Below, piece after piece: positions 4,971 through 54,138 of a DNA stretch of 64,000 nt (within the stretch, counting starts at the first letter, position 1; each line of letters starts with the position of its first letter). The notes beneath the pieces were generated by a model that was not told where the DNA came from, made no database searches, and worked only from the letters and a program-made list of their open reading frames with translations. The position numbers were made by a program, and so were the translations under genes. Origin of the DNA: Candidatus Kapaibacterium sp. (GTDB lineage: Bacteria; Bacteroidota; Ignavibacteria; Kapaibacteriales; UBA4661); NCBI GenBank assembly GCA_025455065.1, contig JALONG010000012.1:62001-126000 (forward strand). The letters are read 5' to 3'.

Positions 4971-5033
4971 GCGTGATACTCCCAAGGGGGATTGTGCGTG
5001 TGGAACGAGTGTTTGTGCGGGTTTACGGGCAAA

Positions 5034-9775: not shown

Positions 9776-9968
9776 TTGTTTTCATGATTGTTTTCATGTT
9801 TTTTCGAGAATAATTGCCCACGAATTGCACAAATCCTCACGAATAAACAACATTCTGAACACTTTTTGATTCAAAATAGTATAAGATTCGTCTCAATTCG
9901 TGCGATTCGCGGATAAATTGTTGTAAAACCTGACCAATGACCTTTCTCTTTCATTTCCACCAACCCCC

Positions 9969-10553
9969 ATGACCAACAACAACGACGAATACTATAATCA
10001 TCCTGAGCGCGTCGGCTTTGGAAAGCGCTTTCTTGCTACGCTCTTGGACAATATGATTGTGGCAATTATCGCTACAACACTTGTCTTTACCGTCGGCACG
10101 AAACTTTTGGAAGTGCTGCACTTAGACGATGAAACCGAGTTTAGCATTTTCAGCGACAACGAAGCGGACGACGAAGCGGAAGAATTTCTGCAATCGCTGA
10201 ACATTAATCCGAATATGCTTTTTGCGCTCACGATGCTCAGTAATCTCACAACGCTGCTTTACAGCATGAGCGAGCTTTTCACCAATGCTTCGCCCGGCAA
10301 GCGCATTATGGGGATTGCTATTGGCAGCGATATGGGCGAACCAGCTTCCAAAGCATTACTGGCGCGGCGGTGGGCGCTGCGCTATGGCTCATATTTGCTT
10401 GCACTTTTTGCTCTAACAGCCACGCTCGGATCGATTCTCAGTTTTCTGGTAACGTGCGGGTTTCTCCTTGCGCTGGGCGCACAGCGTCAAGCGTTGCACG
10501 ATATGGCGGTTCATTCGGCAGTGTATTACCGGGAAGATATTGCAGCATCCTAA
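9969..10553 (+). CDS. RDD family membrane protein
   Basis: 194 aa. The N-terminal motif VGFGKRFLATLLDNMIV is the RDD-family opening (here R, D and following D), followed by TM helices at ~25-43, ~80-98 and ~135-165 and the typical SPGKRIMGIAI and RRWALRYG loops. An acidic insert (EADDEAEEFLQSL) lies between the first two helices. Family members are small membrane proteins of unknown or ion-transport-related function. It ends 11 bp before the xylanase start codon, so the two may be co-transcribed, though a functional link is not obvious. Confidence 0.85.
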   Translation: MTNNNDEYYNHPERVGFGKRFLATLLDNMIVAIIATTLVFTVGTKLLEVLHLDDETEFSIFSDNEADDEAEEFLQSLNINPNMLFALTMLSNLTTLLYSMSELFTNASPGKRIMGIAIGSDMGEPASKALLARRWALRYGSYLLALFALTATLGSILSFLVTCGFLLALGAQRQALHDMAVHSAVYYREDIAAS

Positions 10554-10564
10554 ATTTTCGCCTC

Positions 10565-11962
10565 ATGCCCAACCGACGCACATTTTTGCGGCAATTAGCC
10601 GCCTCCGGTCTTACGTTGCCGACTTTCTACCACACGCTTCAGGCGCAAACAGACGGTCTGCGCTACCGTGCGGCAGCGAAAAATATGTTTTACGGCGCTG
10701 CTACTTCCGAAGACCGCTTGCGGACTGATGCGGCGTACCGTCAAGCAATGATTCGTGAATGTGGGATTATCACGCCCGAATATGAAATGAAGTGGGATAG
10801 GATGCGGCCTTCCGCCACAACGTATAATTTTGTTGATTCGGATTACATCGTCAATTTCGCCCGTCAAAACGGAATGCTCGTGCATGGGCATACGCTCTGC
10901 TGGCATAGAGCGCTTCCGAGCTGGTTTTTCGGCACGGTGAACCGCTCCAATGCCGAACAATTCTTGCGCGACCACATTCAAGCCGTCGTGGGCAGATACA
11001 GAGGGCAGATACACTCGTGGGATGTGGTAAACGAAGTGATTGAAACGCAAGACAACACGTTCAATAAACTGCGTAACAGCCTGTGGTATCAGTATTTGGG
11101 CGAAAATTACGTGGACATTGCCTTTCGCGCAGCCGCGCAGACAGACCCTTCGGCGCTTTTGGTCTATAACGAATACGGTGTGGAATTTGACGACAACGCG
11201 AGGCGTGATGCGATATTGGGCTTACTCCAACGCCTCAAAGCACGGCGCGTACCTATTCACGCTCTCGGCATACAAGGGCATTTGCGCACGGCAGATTCTG
11301 CAAAATTTAATGCCAACACAGCCGCCTTTCGCAAGTTTTTAAGCGACGTTGCGGCACTTGGCTTGAAAATTATCATTACCGAATTTGATACGGATGACCG
11401 CTCACTCCCCACAAACACGCAACAGCGCGATGACGGCGTAGGGCGACTCTACGGTGATTTTTGTTCGGTTGTGATGAATAATCCGGCTGTCATCGGCTTC
11501 ATTACTTGGGGTTTGACGGATAAATATACCGAACTCAATACCTCCGCACCACGCCCTGACCGCCTGCCGCAGCGCCCACTGCCGCTAGATTTGGCAATGC
11601 AACGCAAAAGTGCGTGGTATGCACTTGAATGGTGGTTCAATAACACATCTGCCAGACCTCGTACCGTTACAAGTGTTACCGCCGAAGCCTTACAACAAGC
11701 GCCCCTTGATAATGTGCGTTGTGCGCCGAATCCGGTTTCGTCATGGCTGGATATACAATTTCGTCTGGAAGGTTCATCACAACTGAGTGTCAGCATTATT
11801 GATTCACGTGGCAGAGTCATTGCGACGCTTGCAAATGAGGTCTTTCAAAGTGGAGAGCATCATATTCGCTGGGACGCACAAGAGTCTGTAAACGGATTGT
11901 ATTGGTGTTCGCTGAAATCGTTGCAGGGACAAACAGCAATTCCTGTTGTTGTGGCACGATAA
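10565..11962 (+). CDS. GH10 endo-1,4-beta-xylanase with Tat-like signal and type IX sorting domain
   Basis: 465 aa. It hydrolyses internal xylan beta-1,4 bonds. The export signal NRRTFLRQLAASG resembles a twin-arginine signal and is followed by a short hydrophobic region ending near LQAQ. The GH10 barrel (~35-375) shows GHTLCWH, the acid/base Glu157 in WDVVNEV, and the nucleophile Glu273 in IITEFD, plus GFITWGLTD. The last ~75 residues form a type IX secretion C-terminal domain (APNPVSSWLDIQF, SGEHHIRWD, NGLYWCSL). ATG 10565 is used instead of the upstream frame extension because it starts the signal peptide and follows the RDD gene. The enzyme is expected on the cell surface. Family assignment is firm; substrate within GH10 (xylan versus related glucan) is inferred. 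Confidence 0.93.
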   Translation: MPNRRTFLRQLAASGLTLPTFYHTLQAQTDGLRYRAAAKNMFYGAATSEDRLRTDAAYRQAMIRECGIITPEYEMKWDRMRPSATTYNFVDSDYIVNFARQNGMLVHGHTLCWHRALPSWFFGTVNRSNAEQFLRDHIQAVVGRYRGQIHSWDVVNEVIETQDNTFNKLRNSLWYQYLGENYVDIAFRAAAQTDPSALLVYNEYGVEFDDNARRDAILGLLQRLKARRVPIHALGIQGHLRTADSAKFNANTAAFRKFLSDVAALGLKIIITEFDTDDRSLPTNTQQRDDGVGRLYGDFCSVVMNNPAVIGFITWGLTDKYTELNTSAPRPDRLPQRPLPLDLAMQRKSAWYALEWWFNNTSARPRTVTSVTAEALQQAPLDNVRCAPNPVSSWLDIQFRLEGSSQLSVSIIDSRGRVIATLANEVFQSGEHHIRWDAQESVNGLYWCSLKSLQGQTAIPVVVAR

Positions 11963-12045
11963 AGAAAAGTATGAATAATAAAGCATGAAGTATAAAACAG
12001 GCTTGACGCTTGATATAGTGCGGATTGTGGAGCATTACACCAACA

Positions 12046-13158
12046 TTACGGCTTTGGCAAAAATACTTGCACTATCGTTCCCACGTTTGGTGTACTGCTT
12101 ATGGTGAGACTTCCGCCATGCAGTTCCACGATGCGCTTCGTGATTTCCAGCCCCAAACCTTGTCCCTGCTGCTCATGGCGGTCACGGTCAAATTGCATAT
12201 ACGCACCGATATTCGCAATCTGCTCAGGTTTCATGCCGCGCCCTTCGTCTTGAATCGAAATCACGTAAAAATCACCTCGCTGCTCACCAGCGAGTGTAAT
12301 TGTTGATTTAGGCATGGAAAATTTACACGCATTACTCATCAGTTCGGCGATAATTTTCCGCAAATAGGCATCGGAAATGCGCAAATCAGCCGGAGCAAGG
12401 TTCATCACAACACGATGCAAATTCCCGAAGCCCATCGCTTGATGTTTGGCGGTTTCCTGCATAATTGCCTCTGCACCGGGTAGGATAAACGAAGCGAGTT
12501 CCTCGTTTACTCCTGCTTGTCCCGCCATAATTTCCAACCGTGCCAGATAAATAAAATTCTCCACCAAAGCACTAAGGCGGTGTCCCGACGAGACAATCGT
12601 TGAAATCATCTCCATTGCTTGTTCGCGGGTGAGACGGTCATAATCGCCTGCCAAAAGCTCGCCAAAAACGATAATTGAACTGAGCGGAGTACGGAACTCG
12701 TGCGGAAGCCGCATAGCGATACTGCGGCGAAGCTGCTCCAATTGCTGCGAGGACTGCTGAACGATTTTTTCGCGCTGTGTGATACGCACTTCGATACAAC
12801 GCAGTAAATCTTCCGTTGAAAAGGGTTTTGTGAGGTAATCGTCAGCACCAAGTTTCATTCCGTGCCTGATTTCATCGGGGTCGCGGCGGGCGGAAAGAAG
12901 CAGCACGGGAATAGTCGCTGTGGCGGCATGGTTGCGGAGTTCGAGCAGCACTTCGTAGCCGCTCATTCCGGGCATCATCACATCACAAAGGACAATGTCA
13001 GGCTGTGTACGGTTAATAAGGTCAATCCCCTCGCGCCCTGTGGCAGCGCCAAAGGTTACATAATCATACGCTTCTAAAATACGTTCAATAGTACGCAGCG
13101 TGGTTTCGTCATCATCAATAACGACTATTTTTTTACGGTTGGTGTTCATTTCACTCAT
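12046..13158 (-). CDS. Receiver domain-histidine kinase hybrid
   Basis: 370 aa, soluble. An N-terminal receiver (~10-125; acidic pair IDDDE, phospho-Asp in PDIVLCDVMMPGMSG, Lys in DYLTKPF) is linked by a coiled segment (EKIVQQSSQQLEQLRRS) to a HisKA-like region (RLPHEFRTPLSSI). A HATPase_c domain follows (NACKFS, DEGRGMK, GQGLGLEITKRIV). The architecture is a receiver-first kinase that would be tuned by an upstream kinase. No partner gene is adjacent; the upstream neighbour is a long non-coding stretch, and xylanase converges on the 3' side. The start could be ATG 13158 or ATG 13149; the frame also extends to 13203. Confidence 0.88.
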   Translation of the reverse strand: MSEMNTNRKKIVVIDDDETTLRTIERILEAYDYVTFGAATGREGIDLINRTQPDIVLCDVMMPGMSGYEVLLELRNHAATATIPVLLLSARRDPDEIRHGMKLGADDYLTKPFSTEDLLRCIEVRITQREKIVQQSSQQLEQLRRSIAMRLPHEFRTPLSSIIVFGELLAGDYDRLTREQAMEMISTIVSSGHRLSALVENFIYLARLEIMAGQAGVNEELASFILPGAEAIMQETAKHQAMGFGNLHRVVMNLAPADLRISDAYLRKIIAELMSNACKFSMPKSTITLAGEQRGDFYVISIQDEGRGMKPEQIANIGAYMQFDRDRHEQQGQGLGLEITKRIVELHGGSLTISSTPNVGTIVQVFLPKP

Positions 13159-39924: not shown

Positions 39925-42321
39925 TTATTTTTTGTTCCCCCACAACCCGCTCCACTTCTCGCCCATCTCTAATTCCAATTTCCCGCCCCGCATCATCACC
40001 TCATGCGCAATGAGCGGCTTCTGAAGCGGCTTCCCGTTTAATCGTGCAGTGACAATGTAGGAATTTTTCTCTGATATTCCTTTTGCCGTAATCGTAAAAA
40101 CTTTCCCTTTTCCAACGTGTATTCGTGCGCTTTCTACGAGTGGCGCAGTAATCATGTATTCCCCGCTTGCAGGATTCATCGGGTACAAGCCCACCATATT
40201 CCACACGAGCCATGCCGACATCTGTCCGCAATCGTCATTGCCGCAAAGCCCGTCGGGACGAGGGTTGTAAAGGGTGCGGATGATTTGCCGTGTGCGCTCT
40301 TGGGTGCGATTGGGTGCGCCTGCAAGCGTGTAGAGATGCGCTATGTGGTGGCTTGGTTCGTTGCCGTGCGCGTATTGACCAATCAAGCCGGAAATATCCG
40401 CAGAAGCATTCGTGCCGCTTACTGCCTGTTGCAAGGTGAATAACGTGTCCAACTTCCGCACAAATGCTTGCTTTCCGCCATACTGCTCTATCAATCCCGA
40501 AACATCATGCGGAACAAACCACGCATAATGCCACGCATTGCCTTCGGTGTATTCAGCATCGAAGCCATGTTCGGAGTGCAAAGGGTCGAAGGGGAGTTTC
40601 CATGCGCCTTGCGCATTTGCGTCATTGCTGAGTTTGCCGCGCATAAAGCGTGTTTCCTTGTCCACGATGTTTTTCCAATACCGAGAACGTTCACGAAAAA
40701 CACGCTCATCATCCTTTTTACCCAGTATTTGTGCGGTCTCGGCAATACACCAATCGGCAAAAGCGTATTCCAGCGTCTTGGTAACAGAAAAACCGTCTTT
40801 GTCGTGAGGAACGAAGCCGTATTTACGGTACAAATTCACGCAGAGCGTGTCCTCGTTTGCTGATGCCTTCATTGCCGCAAAAGCGCGTTCTGCCTCACCT
40901 CCACGCAGCAGACCTTTCCGAATAGCATCCGCCAAAACGGGAACACCGTTGTAGCCCGTCATGGTCTTGGTTTCTGTTCCCCAAAACGACCACACGGGCA
41001 AAACGCCGAAACTATCGTAGTGGTCAAGCATAGAACGGAACATAGCCGGGATGCGCTCTTGCTGAACAAGTGTAAAAAGCGGATGCACGGCGCGGAAGGT
41101 ATCCCAGAGCGAAAAAAGGTCGTAGCGAATAGTGTTGGTGCGCTTTACAGGAAAACGCTTCGTCTCCGGTGCGGTAAAGACAAAATTAAAGCGGCTTTCC
41201 TCGTATTCCCCTTTTGCATCTGAAAAGCGCACCGGCGCGAGAAACGAGTGGTAGAGCGCAGTTGCGAACATTGTTTTATCATCCTCGCTCGCACCCGAAA
41301 TTTGAATTTTGCTGAGTTCTTTGCGCCAAGAGTTTTGCGTTTCTGTGCGAATTTGGTCGAAGGATTTGCTGCGCACCGCATCCAAAGCCGCAAGTGCGCC
41401 TTCTTCGCTTACGGAAGAAAGGGCGACTTTGACGGTAATCGGCGCGAGGGATTGGCTGGTAAATTCAAAGTATGCACCAATATCCCCTCCCCAATCAATA
41501 ATGTTAGCTGGAGGATGTGCATCCATCAGTATATTTTTCAAGCCTTTGGATTTAACAAAATAAAAAGGTCTGGAAAACTCTATTGCAAAAAATACCCGTT
41601 GCAATCTTGCCCAACCACTAGAAAATCTATATCCTGTTACCACTGTTTTGGAGCGCTCTATAATCCTAGCTCTAACAGTATTATCCCAATTCACCGCAAA
41701 ACCTAAATCTATCACCAAACCAGCATTTACACTATTCGGGAAGGTATAACGATGAACACCGACAAGTTCCGATGCTGTGAGTTCAGCAATGATGCCGCTT
41801 GCAGGGCTTGGTTTGCCAAATGGTTTACCAAAGGTTTTCTCAGCAAATTTCACACGGTAATACCCCGCCGTTGCTGTTTCGTCGGCGTGAGAAAACTGCG
41901 CTGACCAATCCGTCATCCGTCGTGCGCCTTCTTGACGTGTTCCCTCTTTGGCAACATCTTTTCCGCCTACCCAACGCACAGAAGCGAGATTTGGTCTCGT
42001 GTTTGCGTCATTGACATTCACCGGCATTATCGAAATATCCAGCAAATCCCCAATTCCCGTTCCGCTAAAGTGCGTGTGGCTGAAGCCCGCAATAATGCTG
42101 TCTCCGTAGTTGTAACCGCCGCACCAATCCCATGCTTCTACGCCGTTATCGGGGCTGAGTTGAATCATACCGAAAGGCGCAGTTGCGCCCGGATACGTGT
42201 GTCCATGCCCTGCTGTGCCGATAAACGGGTTCACATAGCGGAGAATATCGTTTTTGGGCTTTTGTTGCGACCAACAATGGGAAGCAACAAACAGTACAAT
42301 GATTGCTAAAGAAATTCTCAT
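39925..42321 (-). CDS. GH92 exo-alpha-mannosidase
   Basis: 798 aa with signal peptide (~1-18, ends CWSQQ). GH92 enzymes are calcium-dependent inverting exo-alpha-mannosidases. The opening RYVNPFIGTAGHGHTYPGATAPFGMIQLSPDNG and later GYNYGDSIIAGFSHTHFSGTG, LYHSFLAPVRFSDAKGEYEE, LWDTFRAVHPLFTL, EGNAWHYAWFVPHD and GNDDCGQMSAW are the family blocks. It overlaps the FAD oxidoreductase stop by four bases. A patch encoding residues ~190-270 (41515-41745) is clearly more AT-rich with different codons than the rest, as if replaced by recombination. Linkage specificity (1,2 / 1,3 / 1,4) cannot be told. Confidence 0.95.
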   Translation of the reverse strand: MRISLAIIVLFVASHCWSQQKPKNDILRYVNPFIGTAGHGHTYPGATAPFGMIQLSPDNGVEAWDWCGGYNYGDSIIAGFSHTHFSGTGIGDLLDISIMPVNVNDANTRPNLASVRWVGGKDVAKEGTRQEGARRMTDWSAQFSHADETATAGYYRVKFAEKTFGKPFGKPSPASGIIAELTASELVGVHRYTFPNSVNAGLVIDLGFAVNWDNTVRARIIERSKTVVTGYRFSSGWARLQRVFFAIEFSRPFYFVKSKGLKNILMDAHPPANIIDWGGDIGAYFEFTSQSLAPITVKVALSSVSEEGALAALDAVRSKSFDQIRTETQNSWRKELSKIQISGASEDDKTMFATALYHSFLAPVRFSDAKGEYEESRFNFVFTAPETKRFPVKRTNTIRYDLFSLWDTFRAVHPLFTLVQQERIPAMFRSMLDHYDSFGVLPVWSFWGTETKTMTGYNGVPVLADAIRKGLLRGGEAERAFAAMKASANEDTLCVNLYRKYGFVPHDKDGFSVTKTLEYAFADWCIAETAQILGKKDDERVFRERSRYWKNIVDKETRFMRGKLSNDANAQGAWKLPFDPLHSEHGFDAEYTEGNAWHYAWFVPHDVSGLIEQYGGKQAFVRKLDTLFTLQQAVSGTNASADISGLIGQYAHGNEPSHHIAHLYTLAGAPNRTQERTRQIIRTLYNPRPDGLCGNDDCGQMSAWLVWNMVGLYPMNPASGEYMITAPLVESARIHVGKGKVFTITAKGISEKNSYIVTARLNGKPLQKPLIAHEVMMRGGKLELEMGEKWSGLWGNKK

Positions 42322-44381
42322 TTACGTTTCGGAATAAAATTGCCTTGTAAATCAGTATCCATGCGCTCAAACGGCTTAAATGCCATATCCAGCATCAACA
42401 CACAATCGCGGCGAATCAGATATTGCGTATTGTTCTCAAAGAGCGACCACACCTTGTTTTCTGTGCCATCAACAACCTCTTTTTGCACATACCGCAAATA
42501 CATCAATGCTTCAGGAACGCTGATTTGTGCTTGTCGTTTGATAATGCGCTTAGGGATGAGTTTCAGTACGTCTTTATTGGGAACGACATTCGCCAAAGCT
42601 GCATAAAAATCTTCGTGGGTAATGGAATAATCGGGATAAAACCACGTTTGGTTCGCCCATTTGTAGGGAATGCCCGTTCCCTGCATTGCTCCAATCACGC
42701 CAATTTTCTGAATCGGCTGGAAATAACGACTTTCCGGCGAAATATCCATGAACGGCATAAGCCAGCATTGTGCATCTAAAAGCGACTGCTGTACAGAGCG
42801 CACCGATACTTGCACAGGGGCAATCGTGTCTTTGACCGACAAGGCAGCAAGCGCACCTGCCGCTTGACCAATCAGCATAACGCAAGGCTGAAGCCGCGTA
42901 GAACCGTTGATGATATTGCTCACCGAAATACATTTTTCTGCTGCAATAAGATTACCAAGTTGGTTGCTTGGTTGCTTGGTTGCTTGGGTACTTGGTTGCT
43001 TGGTTGCTTGGGTACTTGGTTGCTTGGGGCTTGGGGCTTTACTTCCTTCATTCGGAATGAGTGCGCCGAGCGGAATAGAGAAGGACGGAATCGGCGGAAA
43101 ATCTATGGTTGGGAGCTTTTTCGGATTGGGATACTTCGCGTGATGATGGTCCACCGGATAATCACCAACAGCAATCGCTGTGCGGTATAAATTGTTGGAA
43201 TACGGCTTCAATGCTTCATTGATTGTCATCCGCGTAACGCCCTGTAAACGCCGTGCTTCTCGGTGATAGGGAATAAGCGCGAGCGAATCGGGCGTAGGAA
43301 ATTCATCATCAGGCAAGCCCAAATACTTGAATCCAAGTGTTGTTTGGATGTGGTAGATAAAGCGCAGCGTAACTTGTTTCGCCTCTTCGTACCCTTTCAT
43401 GCGCTCTTCACGGGTTTTGCCTATCGGATTGAAGTAATAATCATTACCTTTGCGGGGCCAATTCAGCATATACTTTGCGCCTTTGCCCGTGCGGATAAAA
43501 TCAGGAGTTGGAATACGCCCATATTCCAGCATTTTTAGAGCATCCACAAGTTTTGCCGCGCTGTCCGGCGGAATGGAATAACACGATTCTTTGCAGCAAC
43601 CGTCAAATTCTTTCGGGTCGTAATTTGCGGGTTTGGGTATGCGGCGGTCAGCTTTTTCACCACGTTCAACGCGGTAATCTTTCAAAACAGCAACCCACGT
43701 CAGGTCTTGAATAATATCATTTGCCTTTTCCGGCGCACATTCTTCCTTCGTTTGGGTGCGGCTTTCCATGCCGACATCGAACTTTATGCCCGAGAGCGCA
43801 AGTAGGTCGCCGAGTTCAGTCGCATCAATCACGACCACACCTGTAAGGCTCATCGTTGCACGGGTTTTGGTGCTATCAAGGTTCACGCTTTCAAATTTGA
43901 CCGATGTAATCCGCTTGCCGTCTTTTTCCACCGCAATAGGATACCAACCGTGCAAGATGGTCAGGTTTTGTGCCTCTTTGAGTGCCATTGCTTTCCAAAT
44001 GCTATCACCGATGCGCGGCTCGAAGAGCGTATTACTCACCCAACCTGTTTCGACGTTTTTTGCCCCGCCGTAATATGCACGAAGTTTTTCACGGAACTCG
44101 CCCCACAAGCCGCTTGGGAGGTTGTTATTACCGTCTATCGCCCCCACACCTGCACTTGTGAGCATACCGCCCAACCACGGTGTTTCCTCGACGATGACAA
44201 CTTTTGCGCCCATTCTCGCGGCTTGTATGCCTGCGGTGATGCCGCTTGCGCCACCGCCGATGATGAGAACATCGGTTGTTGTAAGAACGAAGGCATTGGT
44301 TGTAAGAACTACTTGAGCCGAAGCGCAATAGAGACTCAAGAAAAAGAGGCAAATGGAGAAAAAACGTTGTACCATGAACAT
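42318..44381 (-). CDS. Secreted FAD-dependent oxidoreductase (PF12831 type)
   Basis: 687 aa with signal peptide (QRFFSICLFFLSLYCASAQ). The Rossmann motif is VLIIGGGASGITAGIQAARMGAKVVIVEE, and the closing FAD-binding block is IPLGALIP...NLIAAEKCISVSN, both typical of the FAD_oxidored family found next to glycan-degradation genes (xanthan-lyase-like annotation). Between ALIPNE and NLIAAE about 31 residues of Ser/Lys/Gln/Pro-Ala-Thr repeats (KQPSTQAT units) interrupt this normally short loop. Expected in the periplasm or on the outer membrane. Redox substrate unknown. Coupled to GH92 by a 4-base overlap. Confidence 0.88.
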   Translation of the reverse strand: MFMVQRFFSICLFFLSLYCASAQVVLTTNAFVLTTTDVLIIGGGASGITAGIQAARMGAKVVIVEETPWLGGMLTSAGVGAIDGNNNLPSGLWGEFREKLRAYYGGAKNVETGWVSNTLFEPRIGDSIWKAMALKEAQNLTILHGWYPIAVEKDGKRITSVKFESVNLDSTKTRATMSLTGVVVIDATELGDLLALSGIKFDVGMESRTQTKEECAPEKANDIIQDLTWVAVLKDYRVERGEKADRRIPKPANYDPKEFDGCCKESCYSIPPDSAAKLVDALKMLEYGRIPTPDFIRTGKGAKYMLNWPRKGNDYYFNPIGKTREERMKGYEEAKQVTLRFIYHIQTTLGFKYLGLPDDEFPTPDSLALIPYHREARRLQGVTRMTINEALKPYSNNLYRTAIAVGDYPVDHHHAKYPNPKKLPTIDFPPIPSFSIPLGALIPNEGSKAPSPKQPSTQATKQPSTQATKQPSNQLGNLIAAEKCISVSNIINGSTRLQPCVMLIGQAAGALAALSVKDTIAPVQVSVRSVQQSLLDAQCWLMPFMDISPESRYFQPIQKIGVIGAMQGTGIPYKWANQTWFYPDYSITHEDFYAALANVVPNKDVLKLIPKRIIKRQAQISVPEALMYLRYVQKEVVDGTENKVWSLFENNTQYLIRRDCVLMLDMAFKPFERMDTDLQGNFIPKRK
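42955..43040 (-). repeat. In-frame CTTGGTTGCTTGG repeat inside the FAD oxidoreductase
   Basis: Two nearly exact 24-base units (plus-strand reading, GGTTGCTTGGTTGCTTGGG followed by TACTT) with flanking partial copies encode the KQPSTQAT stretch. The same word CTTGGTTGCTTGG occurs in the uvrA tail repeat at ~5680-5750. Confidence 0.8.
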
Positions 44382-44439
44382 TCCAAAAGAACAAAAAATA
44401 GTGGTAAAAAAAACAGTAGTGAAAATAGGCGAAATAATC

Positions 44440-45930
44440 TCAAGTACGCCAGAATATACGCCGTCTCGTGAACAATTGCGTTATCACAACAACCAATCCC
44501 GTAAACAGCACACCGCGAAGAAACCCAAGCCACGCGCCGCTAAATGCCTCATTATACCAAGGGAGAAGCCCCGTTAAACCCAAAAGCGGCAACAATAGCA
44601 TCCCACCGGTAACGTAGGCAATCATTGGGTTTTGACCACATTCGATGATGCTGGTCAAAATCACCTGAAAGCCTCGCCATAGCTTACATTCCTCCGTAAT
44701 GACATGGAGTGTGATAAGCAAGAACAATGCCAAACCGTTTGTTAGAAAATAATACGACAGCGTTGATTTGTCCTTTTTGATGCCGCCCTCGAATACTTCA
44801 AACGCCAAGCCCAGCAAAAGCCAATAAACGCCCCAATTCCACAGATTTTTGTGCAGTTTTTCTGCTGGTGAAAACGCATTTTTTGTGGTAAACAGCCAGT
44901 AACCAAGACCTATAAGGGCAAGGTTTGCCGCAAAATTCCACCACAATTCCCGTGTAAAAAGTCCTACCAAATTCACGGGAATAAACAGGAACGGAATGAT
45001 TACCCTGAGCGCAAGGTTTGATAAGGCTTTTGGCGTTTCATCATGTATTGCTGTTTCATCGTGTATTGCGACTTTATGCTGTTCTTGCATTGCTTTGACG
45101 ATAAGTTCACCTGCAACCGTACCGACGAGAGCAATAAAAAGGTATTGCAGAAAATACACTTTGAAAAGCCATGCAGCCGGAGTTGCAAACCAGAACCAAT
45201 GTTGCCACGAGCCGATAAACGCGGCTTCGTTTTGGGATAATCTGAGGGCGAGGTAAAAACCAAGCAGCCCCATTCGGAGCAGCGTATTTGTGCGGGTGAG
45301 AAGCCATAGCAACGTTCCAAAAACCGCAACATTTGATAGCACGAGCAAAATAATATCGCTCCTTTGCGGATTCCAACTCATTCCAAAACTTGGATGCTGT
45401 GGGTATTGGAGAAAAATCATCAATCCCGCAGAAAGCGCAATACCGCTTGCTGGCAGGATATTTTCCCATTGCGCTGATTTAACGAGCGTTTTCGGAAAAC
45501 GAGTGAATGTCAAAAACAAGAGCGCGTAGCCCAGAAGCCCGACGCAATGCGGCATCCAAGCCTGTTCGTTTGTTGAATACGCAAAAACTTTGCAATGCTG
45601 CGTAAAAATGGCAAAGAATGCCAGCAGCAGACCACGTTTCAGAATGGTACGCCCATGAGCGAGGTATTCACGCCATGTTTCCGGCAAAGCGCGATGTTGA
45701 AAAGCAAGCGGAATCGCTGCGCCCATCGAAAAAAGGAAAAATGGAAAGACCAAATCTACCCACGTTATGCCCGGAAGCGTAGGCACAAAACGGTGTTCAG
45801 GTGGAGGCACTTGTGCGTGATACATCCACGCGGGAAGGCTTCCGGCGAAGGTAATACTGCCTGACAAGACCATTCCAATAATTGAAAGCCCACGAAGAGC
45901 ATCAAGACTGAGTGCGCGGGATTGTTGCAT
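44440..45930 (-). CDS. HGSNAT/DUF5009-like membrane acetyltransferase
   Basis: 496 aa with about 11-12 TM helices. The N-terminus SRALSLDALRGLSIIGMVLSG and the next loop with PGITWVDLVFPFFLFSMGAAIPLA are the family pattern. The human relative acetylates terminal glucosamine of heparan sulfate across the lysosomal membrane; bacterial members sit in glycan-utilisation loci and probably acetylate (amino)sugars of imported oligosaccharides. ATG 45930 (MQQSRALSL) replaces the longer frame to 45990. It lies between susD and the FAD oxidoreductase on the same strand. Confidence 0.85.
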   Translation of the reverse strand: MQQSRALSLDALRGLSIIGMVLSGSITFAGSLPAWMYHAQVPPPEHRFVPTLPGITWVDLVFPFFLFSMGAAIPLAFQHRALPETWREYLAHGRTILKRGLLLAFFAIFTQHCKVFAYSTNEQAWMPHCVGLLGYALLFLTFTRFPKTLVKSAQWENILPASGIALSAGLMIFLQYPQHPSFGMSWNPQRSDIILLVLSNVAVFGTLLWLLTRTNTLLRMGLLGFYLALRLSQNEAAFIGSWQHWFWFATPAAWLFKVYFLQYLFIALVGTVAGELIVKAMQEQHKVAIHDETAIHDETPKALSNLALRVIIPFLFIPVNLVGLFTRELWWNFAANLALIGLGYWLFTTKNAFSPAEKLHKNLWNWGVYWLLLGLAFEVFEGGIKKDKSTLSYYFLTNGLALFLLITLHVITEECKLWRGFQVILTSIIECGQNPMIAYVTGGMLLLPLLGLTGLLPWYNEAFSGAWLGFLRGVLFTGLVVVITQLFTRRRIFWRT

Positions 45931-46067
45931 TGATTTATTTGACTCCAAAATGCCAACCAATAAACCAGAGTGTGAGTTGGTGAAAAGCAAGTTTTATCTA
46001 ACAAAATAAACAAAGTTGCAACCCGCTCCAAATGCAGGCTGCAACTTTGTTTCATGCTCTGAATAAT

Positions 46068-47597
46068 TTACGGTCTATCCCACCACACTCGGGCAAGAAA
46101 GACGTTGTATTCGTTGATATTCACCCGTCCAAGTGCCGCCGTTACTTGGTCGGGATTGAAAATCTGCTCGCTTTGCGGATATTGTGAGCGGCGAGGTACA
46201 AGTCCGCCTGTTACATTACCTGCGGGATTGAGTGTGCGCAGGCGTGGGAAGCCCGTTCTACGCCATTCCGCATACGGCTCCAAACCGTCTAAGAAAAGTG
46301 CTATCCACTTTTGCGTGATGATTTGCTCCAGCGCATTGGCTTGGTTGTATGCTATACGCGGTTGTGCGATGTAGGCATCAATTTGAGCTGTTGTCGGAAT
46401 TGGGGGATTATTCGGACAAATAGAGTATTGTGTCATTGCGCCGCGAATCCCTGCTTCGTAATGTTCACGCGCCGAGCGCGGTGTTGTCCAGCCGCGAAAG
46501 GCTGCTTCTGCCATGAGGAATTCCACTTCCGCGTAGGGAATAAAAATCGTTGGAGAATCACGGTTCGGCGAGGCAAGGTGCGTTCCAACACGGGCAAGCG
46601 TGTTGGAGTTCAACGCTTGACGCTGTGCAGACGTAATACCATTCGGCAAACCGCGATTCGGGCGCACCGTCTCGTTATTGATGATGCGGAGACGAGGGTC
46701 ATTCGTGCTGTCTAAAAGGCTTACAAACGTTTCGCTGAGGCGGTAATCATCGAATTGATTGAGTGTTTGCCATGTGTTGGATTGCTGAATCCGAGCGCCG
46801 TTTGCTTGGTCAATCCAAGCCATATCTGCGTTGTTCTGCATGACACCAGCCGCAATCGCAGATTCTGCTTCGCTTCGTGCCAATGCAGGATCTACTTTGG
46901 AAAGGCGCATTGCAAGGCGCAAACGCAAGGAATTGGCGAATCTGCGCCATTTTACGAGGTCGCCTCGGTAAACACCGTCGTTGGTGGTGAGTGTGCGCTT
47001 CGTTGCATCAAAAGCGGCAACTGCCTCGCGGAGTTCTTTGAGCATATCTTTGTAGATTGCTTCTTGTGTATCGTATTTCGGTGTGAAGTTGCGGTCATAA
47101 AAACCGCGTCCCGCCTCAAAGTACGGTACATCGCCAAACAAGTCAGTAATACGGTGAAACACGAATACCTTCCAGATGCGCCCTGCCGAAAGGATGTTAA
47201 TATCAGCAGGATTCTGTTTTGCACGCTCTACGATGTCCGTTGCAAATTTCACCACACCCGGCTGCCCGATAATACCGCGCCCCGCATACCACCATTCCCA
47301 CTGTGCATTCGGCATACCGCGATACATCTCGGCGGCAAACTCGGCTGTTTTTGGAGAAAGGTGCTGTACTACGCATGAAATGGCGGTATAGTTGTAGGTT
47401 TGCTGCTCGAAGTTGTCCCCCGCCGTGCGAAGCTGCATATTGGAGAACATGAGAAGCGGGTCCACCGTTGTTACTTGCGTGGGATTAGTGTTTAATTGCT
47501 CGAAACCTGCCGTACACCCCGATAACCACACACCGAAGGTGGTTACAAGCGCAAGACTCAAGGTTTTGAGCGGTCGAAACGAAAATTGTGTTTTCAT
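46068..47597 (-). CDS. SusD/RagB-like outer-membrane glycan-binding lipoprotein
   Basis: 509 aa. The lipobox LSGC puts the lipidated Cys at residue 28. FEQLNTNPTQVTTVDPLLMFSNMQL begins the SusD-like fold; TPR-like helices and a RXGXPR-type end (EWRRTGFPRL) follow. SusD proteins form the lid of the SusC pore at the outer surface and hold the oligosaccharide. Its SusC partner lies just upstream but is broken, so this copy may have lost its normal partner. Spacing to the susC remnant is 54 bp. Confidence 0.93.
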   Translation of the reverse strand: MKTQFSFRPLKTLSLALVTTFGVWLSGCTAGFEQLNTNPTQVTTVDPLLMFSNMQLRTAGDNFEQQTYNYTAISCVVQHLSPKTAEFAAEMYRGMPNAQWEWWYAGRGIIGQPGVVKFATDIVERAKQNPADINILSAGRIWKVFVFHRITDLFGDVPYFEAGRGFYDRNFTPKYDTQEAIYKDMLKELREAVAAFDATKRTLTTNDGVYRGDLVKWRRFANSLRLRLAMRLSKVDPALARSEAESAIAAGVMQNNADMAWIDQANGARIQQSNTWQTLNQFDDYRLSETFVSLLDSTNDPRLRIINNETVRPNRGLPNGITSAQRQALNSNTLARVGTHLASPNRDSPTIFIPYAEVEFLMAEAAFRGWTTPRSAREHYEAGIRGAMTQYSICPNNPPIPTTAQIDAYIAQPRIAYNQANALEQIITQKWIALFLDGLEPYAEWRRTGFPRLRTLNPAGNVTGGLVPRRSQYPQSEQIFNPDQVTAALGRVNINEYNVFLARVWWDRP

Positions 47598-47651
47598 AGA
47601 ATTAGTAGTTTTTGGTTTTTAGTTGTTGGTTGGTGGTGTTTGTGCAGCTCG

Positions 47652-48818
47652 TTAAAACTTTAATGAGAGATTCACACCATAACTGCGTGTGCTGGGAAGC
47701 GAGTTGTATTCAAGCCCCTGAGCATTGCCATTGCTGTAATTCGATTCCGGATCCACGTTGGGAATATTGGAAAGCAAAATTGCTGCATTACGCATAACCA
47801 AGGAAATACGCGCTCCGGTGAGGATTCCGCTTAAAAACGAATTTTTGAGCATATCACCGGTAATCGTGTAACCAAGCGTGATTTCGCGCAGTTTTACAAA
47901 ACTTGCGTCATACATAAATGCTTCGGTAACACCACCATAGCTTGACCAGAAGTCTTGCACGTAGGCACGGCGCGTGTTCGGAACATACATCGGCGCAGCC
48001 GTCGTACCAACGTTCATTACGCCCACAGCCAAGATGCTGTCCGGACGTGCGCCTTCGCGTCCTTGCAATGTGCCTTTGTGCTGTCCGGTAATATAGCTGT
48101 TTGCATTCGTAAGCGAGTAAATTTTGCCGCCAAGACGGAAATCCACCAGCGCAGAAAGCGTAAAACCGAAGAAGTTGAAGGTATTCGACCAACCGCCGAT
48201 AGCGTCAGGGATTGCATTGCCTAAGTCCTTTGCAATCGGGTCACGCACGGGCAAGCCTGTACGGGCATCATACACAATCGGAAAGCCTGCTTGCGAAGAA
48301 TCACGCAAAAATGCCGTTCCGCGAATAACGCCGTACGCCTGACGCTCAACCGCCAAGACCGTAGCACCGACGCGGGCTGAGCCGATGTCGAGATTACGAA
48401 TACCCGGAAATAATTCCGCAACATTATTCCAATTCCGCGCAATGTTAAACGACGTTTCCCAGGTAAATTCAGGTGTTTTGACGGGAACGCCCGTTACCAT
48501 GACTTCAACGCCTTCATTCGTGATGCGTCCGGCATTGATGAGTGCGCCCGTGAAGCCCGTTGTTGGAGAAATGGTAATCGGGATAATCTGATTACGAACA
48601 TCTTGCTGATAGTACGTGAAATCAATACCCAAGCGACCTTCAAGGAATTTCAAGTCAAATCCAGCTTCGATATTATTGGAAATTGTCGGCAAAAGATTCG
48701 AGTTCGGGATATTGAACTGCGGTGCTTGTGCCAAAATCATGTTCGTATTGCGTCCGGCGGTGTAGGGAAGTGCTGCAAAAGAGTACAGAAGTTGCAACTG
48801 ATACGGGTCTGTATCATG
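47652..48818 (-). pseudogene. SusC-like TonB-dependent receptor, C-terminal remnant
   Basis: A 388-codon frame, without a proper start, that begins after an in-frame TAG at 48819. It encodes the last strands of a SusC barrel (FLEGRLGIDFTYYQQDVRNQI, FVKLREITLGYTITGDML, ending GVNLSLKF). The first part of the same gene is at 49582-50187 on the same strand. About 400 or more middle codons expected for a ~1000-aa SusC are absent, and the intervening ~0.77 kb is foreign in strand and composition. It cannot make a complete receptor. Confidence 0.88.
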
Positions 48819-48849
48819 CTAGTGCTAGAAAAATCTCCGTGTTTGGTCA

Positions 48850-48877
48850 TTGACAGATTATATTTTTTTTGTATATT
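48850..48877 (+). promoter_or_regulatory. Candidate promoter of the inserted lipoprotein gene
   Basis: TTGACA (48850-48855), 16 bases of spacer and TATATT (48872-48877) precede the lipoprotein ATG by ~48 bases, in a strongly AT-rich context. It lies inside the inserted segment. Confidence 0.5.
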
Positions 48878-48924
48878 TAGGGCTAATTTTTTTTTACTAA
48901 CCTTTCCGTAAATAGGTGTGTTTT

Positions 48925-49509
48925 ATGCATCCCCAAAAAATTGTTTCTGGTGCCATAATGGTTTTTGCCGTTGCCATCATAAGTTCCTGTACAACTAATC
49001 TTCTTGATACTCCGCCACTTCCACAAAGTGTAACAAGTAAAGTTGCCGCTGTAACAAATAAGCAACAAGACAATATGCGACAAGGAATCTTTATAAATGG
49101 TACTTTAATAAAACCTATTCCTAAAGAGGAATATCTAGCTAGAATGAACAAGTCTAGCTCGACTGTAAATAGTAACTATAACCCTAATGCGATTATTATT
49201 CCTCTTCTCAATACTTCCTATCCATATGTAGAGGGATCTCGTAGAATACTCTTTACCGAGACGCGATATGAGATTGTAAATTCAAATGGAGGAGATCCCG
49301 CATCAGCAGAAATTTTTGTAGCAATCACAGACAATACTTATATCCCCGAACAAACTGTTTATTATCCTTTAGGAGTTCAATCTGGCGCAAATGTCTTTCC
49401 TTATGACTTTGGCATTCAACAGCCTGGGACTGTATCTAGTACCATTACATTAACTTCCCCTAATTGCCCCGGCTCTGCTTCTGCTTCATATTATTATACA
49501 TTTCAATAA
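48925..49509 (+). CDS. Predicted lipoprotein of unknown family inside susC
   Basis: 194 aa. A signal peptide (VSGAIMVFAVAIISSC) ends in a lipobox with the lipidated Cys at ~19, followed by TTNLLDTPPLPQ. The rest is Asn/Ser/Thr/Tyr-rich and beta-prone (YPYVEGSRRILFTETRYEIV, SSTITLTSPNCPGSASASYYYTFQ), without recognised domains. Codon use (many AT-ending codons such as ATA, AGA and TTA) differs from neighbours, pointing to transfer. ATG 48925 has AGG nine bases before it. It has its own promoter-like sequence and terminator and runs opposite to the surrounding operon. Confidence 0.75.
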   Translation: MHPQKIVSGAIMVFAVAIISSCTTNLLDTPPLPQSVTSKVAAVTNKQQDNMRQGIFINGTLIKPIPKEEYLARMNKSSSTVNSNYNPNAIIIPLLNTSYPYVEGSRRILFTETRYEIVNSNGGDPASAEIFVAITDNTYIPEQTVYYPLGVQSGANVFPYDFGIQQPGTVSSTITLTSPNCPGSASASYYYTFQ

Positions 49510-49545
49510 TCCTGACCTTACTATAAGCATAATAAATAAGTGAAG

Positions 49546-49575
49546 AGCAAGTTCTTTGGAGAACTTGCTTTTTTT
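49546..49575 (+). terminator. Terminator of the inserted lipoprotein gene
   Basis: Perfect 10-base arms AGCAAGTTCT and AGAACTTGCT around TTGG are followed by seven T residues. It ends ~6 bases before the broken end of the susC N-terminal fragment. Confidence 0.88.
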
Positions 49576-49581
49576 CTATTA

Positions 49582-50187
49582 TTAGCACAACTCAACACAG
49601 AGAATCCCATCCACAACGTAGAGCGGCTGGTTATTGCCCGTAAGTTGCTTCTCACCGCGAATAATCACGCGGCTCGAACCCCCAACGCCTGTTTGACCAA
49701 TGTTTACGCGCACTCCGGCAACTTTGCCCACAAGTGCGTTTGCAACGTTGAGTTCGCGGGCTTGGGTGAGTTCTGCGCCTTGAACGGTCGAAATGGCATA
49801 ACCAAGCGACTTTTTCTCGCGTTCAATACCGATAGCTGTTACGACAACTTCATCCAAAAGCACGTCGTCAATAGCTAATTCAACGTTCAAAGCGCCTTCT
49901 TGCGGCACTTTGACTTCTTTTTTCAAAAAGCCGATAAGTTGGAACACAAGCGTCGTGCCGGGCTGCGCGTTCAGAGTATAATTCCCTTCGCGGTCAGCGA
50001 TTGCACCTTTTAATGTTCCTTTCACAAGGATTTTTGTCCCGCCAAGCGGCTTTCCGTCGCCTTTGGCAGTAACCTTTCCTGTTACGGAACGGTTTTGCGA
50101 AAATACCTCCCCGTTCAAAAACACTAATGCCGCAATAAGCAACATACAGCGCATCAAAAGAGAAGTACGAAGAAACAAACTGTTCAT
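49582..50187 (-). pseudogene. SusC-like TonB-dependent receptor, N-terminal remnant
   Basis: A 201-codon frame from a proper ATG. It has a signal peptide (MLLIAALVFLNGEVFSQ), a CarboxypepD_reg-like domain (VTGKVTAKGDGKPLGGTKI ... GTLVFQ region), the DEVVVTAIGIEREKKSLGYA link and the start of the plug domain (VIIRGEKQLTGNNQPLYVVDGI). It then leaves the family after VVDGI with LCVELC and a stop at the edge of the inserted segment. The C-terminal part is at 47652-48818. Transcription from the GHL10 gene upstream (78-bp gap) would produce only a truncated plug. Confidence 0.9.
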
Positions 50188-50265
50188 AGAATATGGATTG
50201 GGTGATGAAAATGGTGGAAATTTGACAAGAACTCTCGATTACTCTCAATTAGTCTCGACTATTTG

Positions 50266-51492
50266 CTACGGTCTCAAAAGCGAATCCCTTGGAAACGCAG
50301 CATCCAAGCGATAGACACCCTGCCGCAACGCGCGTGCAGTCTCGTTATTATTCGGTGTAAGTGCCTCGTGGAAGAAAATGACCGAGCCAATCATTCCCGC
50401 TTGCCTATTCGCCGTAATGCTCTCGGAAAGCAGTTGCGCAGTGGAAATATACGGGTCTGCCCTGCCAAGAACACCCGGAGCTATCTTGCGGCGAGCATTT
50501 GCGGGCATTTGCGACTGCAACTGCGTGAGAAGCCCTTGATATGCGGGTAAATCTCGCCGATATAGCTGCGTACTCAGCAAATCTACCAAGCCGCGCTGCA
50601 TCCACGTTGGGGAATCCTGCAAATATTCGACATTCCCAAACGGAAACGGGCTTGGCGACATGGCAAACACTAAATTCGGCTTTCGCGCTTTCACTGTCTG
50701 ACGCAAGCGTGCAAGCCAGTCGGTGAGTTTGTCAGCGCGCCATTTTACCCATGCTGCTTCTTTGAAATCTTGCGGGGCAGCCATGCCTGTTTCGCGGCGA
50801 TACCGAGCGACGGTTGCTGTGTCATAACCGCCTTCGGTGGGCATAGCGGGCATACGGTCGTCGCCTTGAATCCCGTCAATATCGTAGCCGTTCACCACTT
50901 CCATTACCAAATCAGTGATAAAATTCTGCACATTGGAATCAAGCGCATTCATCCAATAAAACCCATTTTTGACCACAACCTGCCCATCGCGCCCGATGCT
51001 TGACCATTGCGGATATTTGGTGAGAATTGCTCCGGGCGGCGTACCTAAGCCACTATTGAACGACGAAAAACCATACTCAAACCAAGGAATAACCGTCAAG
51101 CCTTGTAACCGTGCCTCTTCAATAGTTTCTCGCAACACATCGCGGTCGCCGAACTGCGCACCAATCGGCAAATTAAACTCACGCTGCATCCTTGCCGAAC
51201 GCCACATTGTATAGCCGCACAACCAAACGACCGGAAAGACTGTATTGAAGCCGTTTTCCTTGAGTGTTCGCATAGCGAGCGCGATATTTTGCCGCGAATC
51301 AAACACGGTGCTTCCGGCAACCGTCAGCCAGACACCGCGTACTTCGGGGCTTGCAACGCTTGGTGTTGTGGGGCGCGTTGTGTCGGGTGGGCGTGTAACA
51401 ATCTGCGGACCTTGATTTTGCGGCGTACAGGCAATGGCGCTAAGAAAAAACGCTGTGGCAGTCAAGCACAACGCGAAGTTGAGACGAAGCAT
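50266..51492 (-). CDS. GHL10-family (DUF187-like) glycosyl hydrolase-like lipoprotein
   Basis: 408 aa. A lipobox (LSAIAC, Cys22) follows the signal. The domain starts EVRGVWLTVAGSTVFDSRQNIALAMRTLKENGFNTVFPVVW and shows NGYDIDGIQGDDRMP and WKADKL-like helices, the family pattern of a TIM barrel related to GH-H clan enzymes. Activity is inferred as endo-acting on polysaccharide or peptidoglycan-like glycans; few members are characterised. It is the first gene of the minus-strand glycan island, just before susC. Confidence 0.88.
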   Translation of the reverse strand: MLRLNFALCLTATAFFLSAIACTPQNQGPQIVTRPPDTTRPTTPSVASPEVRGVWLTVAGSTVFDSRQNIALAMRTLKENGFNTVFPVVWLCGYTMWRSARMQREFNLPIGAQFGDRDVLRETIEEARLQGLTVIPWFEYGFSSFNSGLGTPPGAILTKYPQWSSIGRDGQVVVKNGFYWMNALDSNVQNFITDLVMEVVNGYDIDGIQGDDRMPAMPTEGGYDTATVARYRRETGMAAPQDFKEAAWVKWRADKLTDWLARLRQTVKARKPNLVFAMSPSPFPFGNVEYLQDSPTWMQRGLVDLLSTQLYRRDLPAYQGLLTQLQSQMPANARRKIAPGVLGRADPYISTAQLLSESITANRQAGMIGSVIFFHEALTPNNNETARALRQGVYRLDAAFPRDSLLRP

Positions 51493-51708
51493 AAATTGTT
51501 ATGGGATTGGTGGAGTGTTTGGGGGAGAGGGCAAGAACACACAAAATATTCACACGTTTCACTCCGAATATACAAACTGTTCGCTATAAGCGCAATTTTT
51601 CTTGCGAAAAAACCATAAAGTTTTTTGGGATAGTTTCGGCACGAGATTTTTTGTAATTTTTGGGGAAACAAATTTTCACCATTTCATGCGAACATTTTGC
51701 GAATAATT

Positions 51709-52047
51709 ATGGTGCAAGTACCTCAAACACAGGAAGAAAAATTTCTGCTTCAGCGCATCAAATCTGCTATTCAGGAAATTGAGCCAAATGCAGAATTGTA
51801 CCTTTTCGGCTCCCATTCTCGCGGTGATGCAACCGAAGAATCGGATTGGGATGTACTGGTGTTAGTGGATGGTGAAGTAACGATGAATAGAAAATTGCCC
51901 ATTTGGAATAGTGTATATCCTTTAGAACTAGAATACTCAATTTGTATAGGTCTTAGCGTCAGAGGCAAAGATGATTGGCGTAATGAGGGATTTATTCTCT
52001 CAACTCCATTCTACCAAATCTTCAGCAAAGATGTTATTCTGATGTAA
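51709..52047 (+). CDS. Orphan MNT-type nucleotidyltransferase domain protein
   Basis: 112 aa. The polymerase-beta-like motif is ELYLFGSHSRGDATEESDWDVLVLV, i.e. GSxxRG followed by DxD, so catalytic residues are intact. Such proteins normally pair with a HEPN toxin-like RNase and silence it by adding AMP residues. No HEPN gene follows or precedes; the next gene is DUF4434. The 3' half has more AT-rich codons than surrounding genes, hinting at transfer. ATG 51709 is used in place of the TTG at 51697. Confidence 0.85.
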   Translation: MVQVPQTQEEKFLLQRIKSAIQEIEPNAELYLFGSHSRGDATEESDWDVLVLVDGEVTMNRKLPIWNSVYPLELEYSICIGLSVRGKDDWRNEGFILSTPFYQIFSKDVILM

Positions 52048-52071
52048 TTTTTTTAACTGAGTTACATAACC

Positions 52072-53040
52072 ATGCTCATCTCCGCAACTTTCCTCGACGA
52101 AATTAGCCACGACATACCGCATCAAAACTGGGGCGAAGCCGAATGGGATGCCGACTTTCAAGCTATGAAGCGCATCGGTATTGATACCGTTGTTCTCATT
52201 CGCTCCGGCTATGGGCGTTGGGCGACGTACCCAAGCGAGGTACTTACCCGCGAAGAAAGTATTTATGAGCCTCCGGTGGATTTGGTCGAAATGTATTTGC
52301 GCTTGTCGGAGAAGTACGGCATGAGGTTTTTCTTTGGAACATATGATTCAGGGCGGTTTTGGCATGATGAGAACTATTGGAAAACGACGGCTTTTGAGCG
52401 CGACAACGAAGTCAATATGCGCGTTACGGAGGAAGTGTGGCGTAAATACGGCTCCAGTCCTGCTTTTGGTGGGTGGTATTTATCCTTGGAAATAAGCCGC
52501 AAAACAGGGAAAATTGTGGATATGTTTCATAAACTCGGCAAGCATTGTAAAGATCTTTCAGGCGGGCTTCCTATTTTAATTTCACCCTATATTGACGGCA
52601 CAAAAGCTGTTTCGCAATACGCAGCAACGCTCACCAAAGAACAAACTACCACACTCGAAGAACATGAGCGCGATTGGAATGAGATTTTAAGCGGCGTTCA
52701 AGGCGCAGTGGATATTTTGGCGTTTCAAGACGGACACGTGCATTATCACGAATTAGCAGATTATCTCGTCATCAACAAACAGCTCGCAGACCGCTACGGA
52801 ATGCGCTCTTGGACGAATGTCGAATCTTTCGACCGCGATATGCCAATAAAATTTTTGCCCATCAAATGGGAAAAATTGCGCTTAAAGCTGGAAGCCGCAC
52901 AAAAAGCTGGTGTGGAGAAGGCAATAACGTTTGAATTTTCGCATTTTATGAGTCCGAACTCGGCGTATATTCAAGCGCATCATTTATACAACCGTTACCG
53001 CGAATACGCACAAACACTCAATCAATCATTCTCATCATAA
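52072..53040 (+). CDS. DUF4434 domain protein
   Basis: 322 aa, no signal peptide. The order of strands and helices fits a TIM barrel: FLDEISHDIPHQNWGEAEWDADFQAMKRIGIDTVVLIRSG at the start, FGGWYLSLEI, PILISPYIDGT, VDILAFQDG and RSWTNVESFDRD later, matching DUF4434. Conserved acidic and Trp residues line up as in glycosidase barrels, so a glycan-processing role is likely but unproven. It is followed by a peptidoglycan LD-carboxypeptidase gene (15-bp gap), which may indicate a wall-turnover link. Confidence 0.85.
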   Translation: MLISATFLDEISHDIPHQNWGEAEWDADFQAMKRIGIDTVVLIRSGYGRWATYPSEVLTREESIYEPPVDLVEMYLRLSEKYGMRFFFGTYDSGRFWHDENYWKTTAFERDNEVNMRVTEEVWRKYGSSPAFGGWYLSLEISRKTGKIVDMFHKLGKHCKDLSGGLPILISPYIDGTKAVSQYAATLTKEQTTTLEEHERDWNEILSGVQGAVDILAFQDGHVHYHELADYLVINKQLADRYGMRSWTNVESFDRDMPIKFLPIKWEKLRLKLEAAQKAGVEKAITFEFSHFMSPNSAYIQAHHLYNRYREYAQTLNQSFSS

Positions 53041-53055
53041 CTCATTTCTGCCAAC

Positions 53056-54138
53056 ATGACAACTCGCCGCAATCTTCTTACATCAGTCGCAGGTGCAGCA
53101 ATAGCCTATCCACTACTCGCTTCTGAGGCTTTTGCACAGAAAAAATCTTCTGCAAAAGCAAAAAACACAAAACCGCTCAAACTTTTGAAACCTAAAGCAC
53201 TGCAAAGTGGCATGACCATTGGCTTGGTCTTCCCTGCGGGGTGGACAAAAATGGAAGAAGTCGAGTTGGGAAAGGCATATTTGGAGAAATTAGGCTACAA
53301 GGTTGTACTGGGACAAAATGCCGGAAAACAGCTTGGGTACTTGTCTCAAGATGACAAATCACGCGCTGCGGAATTTATGACCGCCGTTGAAAATCCCTCT
53401 ATTGACGCGATTATCTGCGCACGGGGCGGTTACGGCACAATGCGAATGCTCGAAATGCTTGATTACACCTCAATTCGTAAGCATCCGAAAATTATTTCAG
53501 GCTACAGCGACATCACGGCACTTATCAACACGATTTACCAGCGAAGTGGCTTGGTTACATTCCATGGACCGGGTGCGCTGGCTGCATGGAATGAATTTAC
53601 CGAAAAAAGTTTTTTGGAAATTGCGACAGCCAATGCTTTGACCGATGCGGAACGTGCGAAAAAGCCCTTCCAACCAATAGTGATGCCGCCTACAGAAGGT
53701 TGGAAAACGATGACAACGGGAAAAACAGGTAAAGCAAAAGGGCGTTTGGTAGGAGGCAATCTCACGCTGCTGTCCATGACGACGGGAACATCACTTGAAA
53801 TCAACACCAAAGGCGCATTGCTCTTTTTTGAGGATGTTACCGAAGAGCCGTACCGTATAGACCGCATGATTACGCAACTTTTGCTTGCCGGAAAGCTGCA
53901 AGAGTGCGTCGGGATTGCGATTGGGCAGTTTACCAAATGCGAAGCCGAAGACGCGGCACATTCATTCACCGTGCAGGAAGTGTTGGAAGACCGCTTGAAA
54001 GGCTTGGGAATACCGATTGTTACAGGATTGCAGTTCGGACACGTCGCGCAAAAATACACCTATCCGATTGGCGTACAAGCTGAATTAAACACCGAAACAG
54101 GCACATTAACGCTGTTGGAATCGGCGGTACAAGGGTAA
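53056..54138 (+). CDS. S66 LD-carboxypeptidase with Tat signal
   Basis: 360 aa. The N-terminus TTRRNLLTSVAGAAIAYP...AFAQ is a twin-arginine signal. The S66 core follows: GLVFPAGW, ARGGYGTMRMLEMLDY, the nucleophile Ser in ISGYSDITALIN, FHGP, the Glu in LLFFEDVTEEPYRIDRM, and the His in QFGHVAQKYTYPIG. S66 enzymes cut the L,D bond of tetrapeptides released from murein and are classically cytoplasmic. An exported form is known in some Bacteroidota and would act in the periplasm. A stem-loop sits just after the stop. Confidence 0.93.
   Translation: MTTRRNLLTSVAGAAIAYPLLASEAFAQKKSSAKAKNTKPLKLLKPKALQSGMTIGLVFPAGWTKMEEVELGKAYLEKLGYKVVLGQNAGKQLGYLSQDDKSRAAEFMTAVENPSIDAIICARGGYGTMRMLEMLDYTSIRKHPKIISGYSDITALINTIYQRSGLVTFHGPGALAAWNEFTEKSFLEIATANALTDAERAKKPFQPIVMPPTEGWKTMTTGKTGKAKGRLVGGNLTLLSMTTGTSLEINTKGALLFFEDVTEEPYRIDRMITQLLLAGKLQECVGIAIGQFTKCEAEDAAHSFTVQEVLEDRLKGLGIPIVTGLQFGHVAQKYTYPIGVQAELNTETGTLTLLESAVQG

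Follow-up and report, generated by a model that had tools for sequence, protein, structure and literature searches.

How does a gene for a SusC-type receptor come to hold, in its middle, a lipoprotein gene with control signals of its own? This question is raised by a locus in a 64,000-nucleotide stretch of DNA (the window) from Candidatus Kapaibacterium sp., a member of the order Kapaibacteriales. An earlier note, made from the letters of the window, had described a susC gene split by AT-rich DNA and had offered three explanations: a cassette moved by a recombinase acting in trans, a hotspot for swapping surface-protein modules, and an assembly artefact. We compared the locus with its counterparts in relatives, analyzed the composition and edges of the intervening DNA, and weighed the routes by which it could have arrived.

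A susC gene in two pieces

The host gene belongs to the SusC/RagA family of TonB-linked receptors (TIGR04056), from whose other members it differs in lying in two pieces and in lacking 476 central codons. The N-terminal fragment (positions 49582 to 50187, minus strand; 201 amino acids; PF13715 and PF07715), assigned by its orthology to genes on L039 and L040 of two related genomes, comprises the signal peptide, the carboxypeptidase-regulatory-like domain and roughly one half of the plug domain, and its final five residues (LCVEL, after VVDGI) are encoded by the inserted DNA. The C-terminal fragment (47652 to 48818, minus strand) represents the barrel part (PF00593) and stays open for 388 codons without a native start; it shares 90% and 87% identity with the two intact orthologues. 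On the 981-position TIGR04056 model, the N piece covers positions 2 to 161 and the C piece positions 618 to 981, with scores of 158.7 and 166.3 bits, respectively, both below the family cut-off of 368.25 bits. The split of susC at these coordinates is therefore confirmed, since both pieces are SusC/RagA fragments by TIGR04056. The susD partner next to it (46068 to 47597, minus strand; 509 amino acids; PF12771 and PF12741) is intact and 86 to 87% identical to its orthologues.

An intact allele, for which a search among relatives had been proposed, is present in two genomes of the same genus: G003 (L039, positions 9824-13018; 1,064 amino acids) and G005 (L040, positions 4375-7554; 1,059 amino acids). 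In both of them, as in the window, susC lies between susD and a GHL10 glycosidase gene. Aligned to these two alleles, homology stops at 48815/48816 and restarts at 49602, so that the replaced segment spans approximately 48816 to 49601 (about 786 bp). The susC sequence lost in exchange amounts to 1,429-1,430 bp, or 476 codons, and extends from just past the plug motif LYVVDGI to just short of DTDPYQL. The earlier note was thus right that AT-rich DNA lies between the pieces and that receptor codons are missing, and its sizes needed revision, slightly for the segment (from about 0.77 kb) and for the loss from a somewhat low estimate of about 400 codons. Each flank keeps an even level of sequence identity as far as its junction, and we rejected a recombination tract in the susC flanks because identity does not change near either junction. 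The deleted segment has no copy elsewhere in the assembly, where its best matches are paralogues at 34 to 36% identity.

The surviving parts of the gene show no decay. Amino acid changes unique to this genome make up 2.6% of the C-terminal susC fragment, 4.0% of SusD and 3.8 to 5.7% of the other neighbors. From this lack of decay in the surviving fragment it follows that the break is recent, or is not fixed in the population, or is not real.

The surroundings of susC (window positions 39925-54138, compared with L039 and L040) form a neighborhood common to the three species, with genes for a GH92 protein, an FAD oxidoreductase, an acyltransferase-like membrane protein, SusD and SusC, a GHL10 protein and a peptidase, whose order and orientation have been rearranged. 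In G005, an open reading frame (ORF) for an IS200-like transposase (L040 7866-8444, minus strand; Y1_Tnp, PF01797; 192 amino acids) lies between susC and the GHL10 gene and is absent from the corresponding place in the window. The window has a small ORF with a nucleotidyltransferase domain (51697-52047, plus strand; PF01909), whose third-position GC content of 0.35 is below that of its neighbors and which is unmatched at the corresponding place in the DNA of both relatives. The FAD oxidoreductase ORF (42318-44381, minus strand) contains, at about 42940-43020, the short protein repeat KQPSTQATKQPSTQATKQPSNQ that is missing from the G003 orthologue and that may be a small in-frame tandem expansion.

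The replacement segment, its lipoprotein gene and its edges

The segment that replaces the middle of susC is foreign in composition. Its GC content is 0.358, and no 786-bp stretch sampled across the window goes as low (mean 0.481, standard deviation 0.031). Within it lies a lipoprotein gene (48925 to 49509, plus strand; 194 amino acids), whose product has a signal peptide ending in the lipobox-like ISSC and whose GC contents at the three codon positions are 0.446, 0.440 and 0.244, the last of these against roughly 0.5 in most neighbors. Two other low-GC stretches of the window, at 13.5 and 18.4 kb, were considered as further lipoprotein cassettes and set aside, as they are largely intergenic or consist of host genes.

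The gene is preceded by a match to a sigma-70-like promoter (TTGACA-16-TATATT, 11 of 12 positions; 48850 to 48877, plus strand), which is weak evidence given that such matches are no more numerous in the region than in shuffled sequence. It is followed by an intrinsic-terminator-like stem of 14 pairs with a T-run (49542 to 49573, plus strand). The description of a whole, foreign-looking lipoprotein unit within a broken susC accordingly holds, with a strong terminator and a weak promoter-like match. A search against Rfam gave no match.

No convincing relative of the lipoprotein was found in its own genome, in 98 relatives, in 395 genomes of the phylum, or among viral contigs, phages, plasmids, Pfam, PHROGs, NCBIfam or the PDB; the profile search that had been proposed for the 194-amino-acid protein (Pfam, PHROGs and NCBIfam) placed it in no family. 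A scan of 84,980 species genomes with peptide patterns, which reaches close relatives only, was also negative. A distant family could escape such collection scans. Searches at the DNA level likewise found no relative of the insert in its own genome, the 98 relatives, the 395 genomes of the phylum, or the collections of species genomes, viruses, phages and plasmids. One partial match to a human-gut phage contig (36% identity, E = 0.1) involved a 209-amino-acid ORF of phage type without a signal peptide, and we took it as due to chance. A single-sequence structure model of the lipoprotein was unusable (mean pLDDT 29.6). The most that can be said of the protein is that it is an orphan, anchored at the surface or in the envelope, with its own control signals; its expression is probably independent of susC.

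Near the ends of the segment lies an imperfect inverted repeat, with a left arm TGCTAGTGCTAGAAAAA at 48817 to 48833 (plus strand) and a right arm TGCTAATAATAGAAAAA at 49571 to 49587 (minus strand). Of its 17 positions, 14 are complementary, and it heads the list of inverted repeats in the region 48700-49750. The short inverted words previously reported at the edges are indeed there (GTGCTA at 48822-48827 and TAGCAC at 49583-49588). On the left, the arm sets in no more than 1-2 bases from the susC junction; on the right, it stops 14 bp short of the junction. The repeat is rarer than expected by chance: an equal repeat equally near the ends occurred in 0 of 2,000 dinucleotide shuffles of the insert and in 2 of 3,000 random segments of the window, and a test that kept the A/T runs in place as anchors put the probability at about 0.001 per register, figures that apply to a repeat noticed before it was tested and composed in part of the terminator's T-run.

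The repeat pair has no second occurrence in the genome assembly; a whole-genome search allowing up to one mismatch returned one further single site, equal to the control. Single hits in the 98 relatives were no more common than with the reversed control. The flanks of the insert contain no target-site duplication. We also asked if the deleted part of susC could be the source of the 14 bp next to the right junction; its best alignment, to the opposite strand, agreed at 11 of 14 positions and was unconvincing. The attC recombination site that an integron gene cassette carries 3′ of its gene was not seen: inspection by eye of 49507-49601 revealed no paired attC-like core sites, and the sole strong fold there is the terminator stem.

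Routes to the exchange

We favor a recent event that joined an insertion to a deletion, the foreign DNA having probably been captured by illegitimate recombination, and give this reading a probability of roughly 0.62. Incoming linear foreign DNA would have been captured by illegitimate recombination of the homology-facilitated type, as in competent bacteria. About 0.8 kb of AT-rich DNA with the whole lipoprotein gene would in this way have displaced 1.43 kb of central susC sequence. The gain of about 786 bp and the loss of 1,429-1,430 bp at a single place, with collinear flanks, fit an insertion-deletion of this origin, as do the intact orthologues between the same neighbors, the foreign composition, the even identity of the flanks and the lack of a stored copy of the lost segment. 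Published products of illegitimate recombination have gained about 1 kb and lost 1 kb on average, mostly with micro-homology of 3-10 bp; a point against this reading is that the same study found the route very rare during conjugation in Escherichia coli (PMC3240628). Short coupled insertion-deletions, known as dimorphic small variable segments, are common between bacterial strains (PMC2884548). The class of event, an insertion coupled with a deletion, is already described in bacteria, and the locus resembles both kinds of case in its gain of about 1 kb, its loss of about 1 kb and its collinear flanks.

The locus differs from homology-facilitated illegitimate recombination in the inverted repeat at the ends of its insert, which that route does not predict and which counts against it. 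No donor of the insert was found in any collection searched, and the homologous anchor at one end and the micro-homology at the other are presumed. The genome encodes ComEC, which is compatible with DNA uptake but is widespread and no proof of competence. Ku was not found in the genome, and Ku-dependent end joining was rejected for this reason.

The inverted repeat is also what lends weight to a weaker explanation, unlikely in our view yet still credible, in which the segment is a non-autonomous cassette moved by a transposase acting in trans. Mobile insertion cassettes carry a passenger gene, have no transposase and are flanked by inverted repeats. The element here would span 48817-49587, with ends of the TG...CA type, imperfect inverted repeats of 17 bp at its termini and the lipoprotein gene as passenger, and an adjacent deletion from its left end would have taken out the middle of susC. 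Consistent with this are the rarity of the repeat, the start of its left arm almost at the susC junction, and the complete transcription unit between the arms, whose only ORF is the lipoprotein gene. The likeness to the MIC231 type, named for a cassette of Bacillus cereus to which two papers refer in citation (PMC2266710 and PMC6542083), is that a passenger gene lies between inverted repeats without a transposase. The differences are that no resident element sharing its ends was found, that the repeat is imperfect and its pair single-copy (repeated sequences can drop out of draft assemblies), that no target-site duplication exists, and that a deletion is coupled to the insertion. The 98 relatives show no excess of the repeat over the control, the right arm stands off from its junction, the loss of 1.43 kb leaves no clean empty site, and the T-run of the terminator forms part of the repeat. 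Of the earlier proposal of a cassette moved in trans, the inverted repeat survives; a second copy, a signal in relatives, a target-site duplication and an intact site do not. A bolder version, that a transposase-less lipoprotein cassette with promoter, terminator and TG...CA-ended repeats moves in trans among the Kapaibacteriales, knocking out outer-membrane receptors and possibly shielding cells from phages or toxins that use them, appears to us improbable.

We also consider it unlikely that the structure is an assembly artefact or reflects a strain mixture, in which a foreign or variant segment was joined into susC or a minority allele was chosen. The assembly is fragmented (5.6 Mb in 131 contigs; estimated 99.5% complete with 0.31% contamination), the nearest relatives with names, in which this locus is also present, are metagenome bins (called "Candidatus Kapaibacterium" and "Ignavibacteria bacterium"), and an artefact would accord with the undecayed susC parts and with a segment that is foreign in composition and has no relatives. 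Against this, two false joins would be needed, collinear and inside one gene; a 1-kb search across the segment revealed no repeat common to the junctions and the rest of the assembly; the contamination estimate is only 0.31%; and the lost part of susC is on no other contig. Misassembly driven by repeats, and with it the artefact proposed in the earlier note, is thus unlikely.

The hotspot explanation, a programmed exchange of surface-protein modules by a shufflon or a phase-variable receptor, at which some of the literature hints in discussing receptor loci of gut Bacteroidales alongside phase variation, is very improbable: the replacement was seen once, both relatives with the locus carry plain intact genes, no recombinase gene is found among the ORFs of 42-56 kb, and the assembly has no silent susC segment as a shufflon would require, which largely refutes it.

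Consequences for the receptor locus

The explanation that is most likely is hence an ordinary one, in which a receptor gene was broken by the coupled gain of foreign DNA and loss of resident sequence. With 476 codons gone from its center, the SusC receptor would be inactivated and its SusD partner left stranded. The locus offers a clear, recent case in which one and the same event breaks a receptor gene and delivers an orphan lipoprotein gene of foreign origin, along with control signals of its own. The setting is a little-studied order, and on present evidence the event is a single one. If it were true that the segment recurs at receptor genes, it would represent a new way of exchanging surface proteins.
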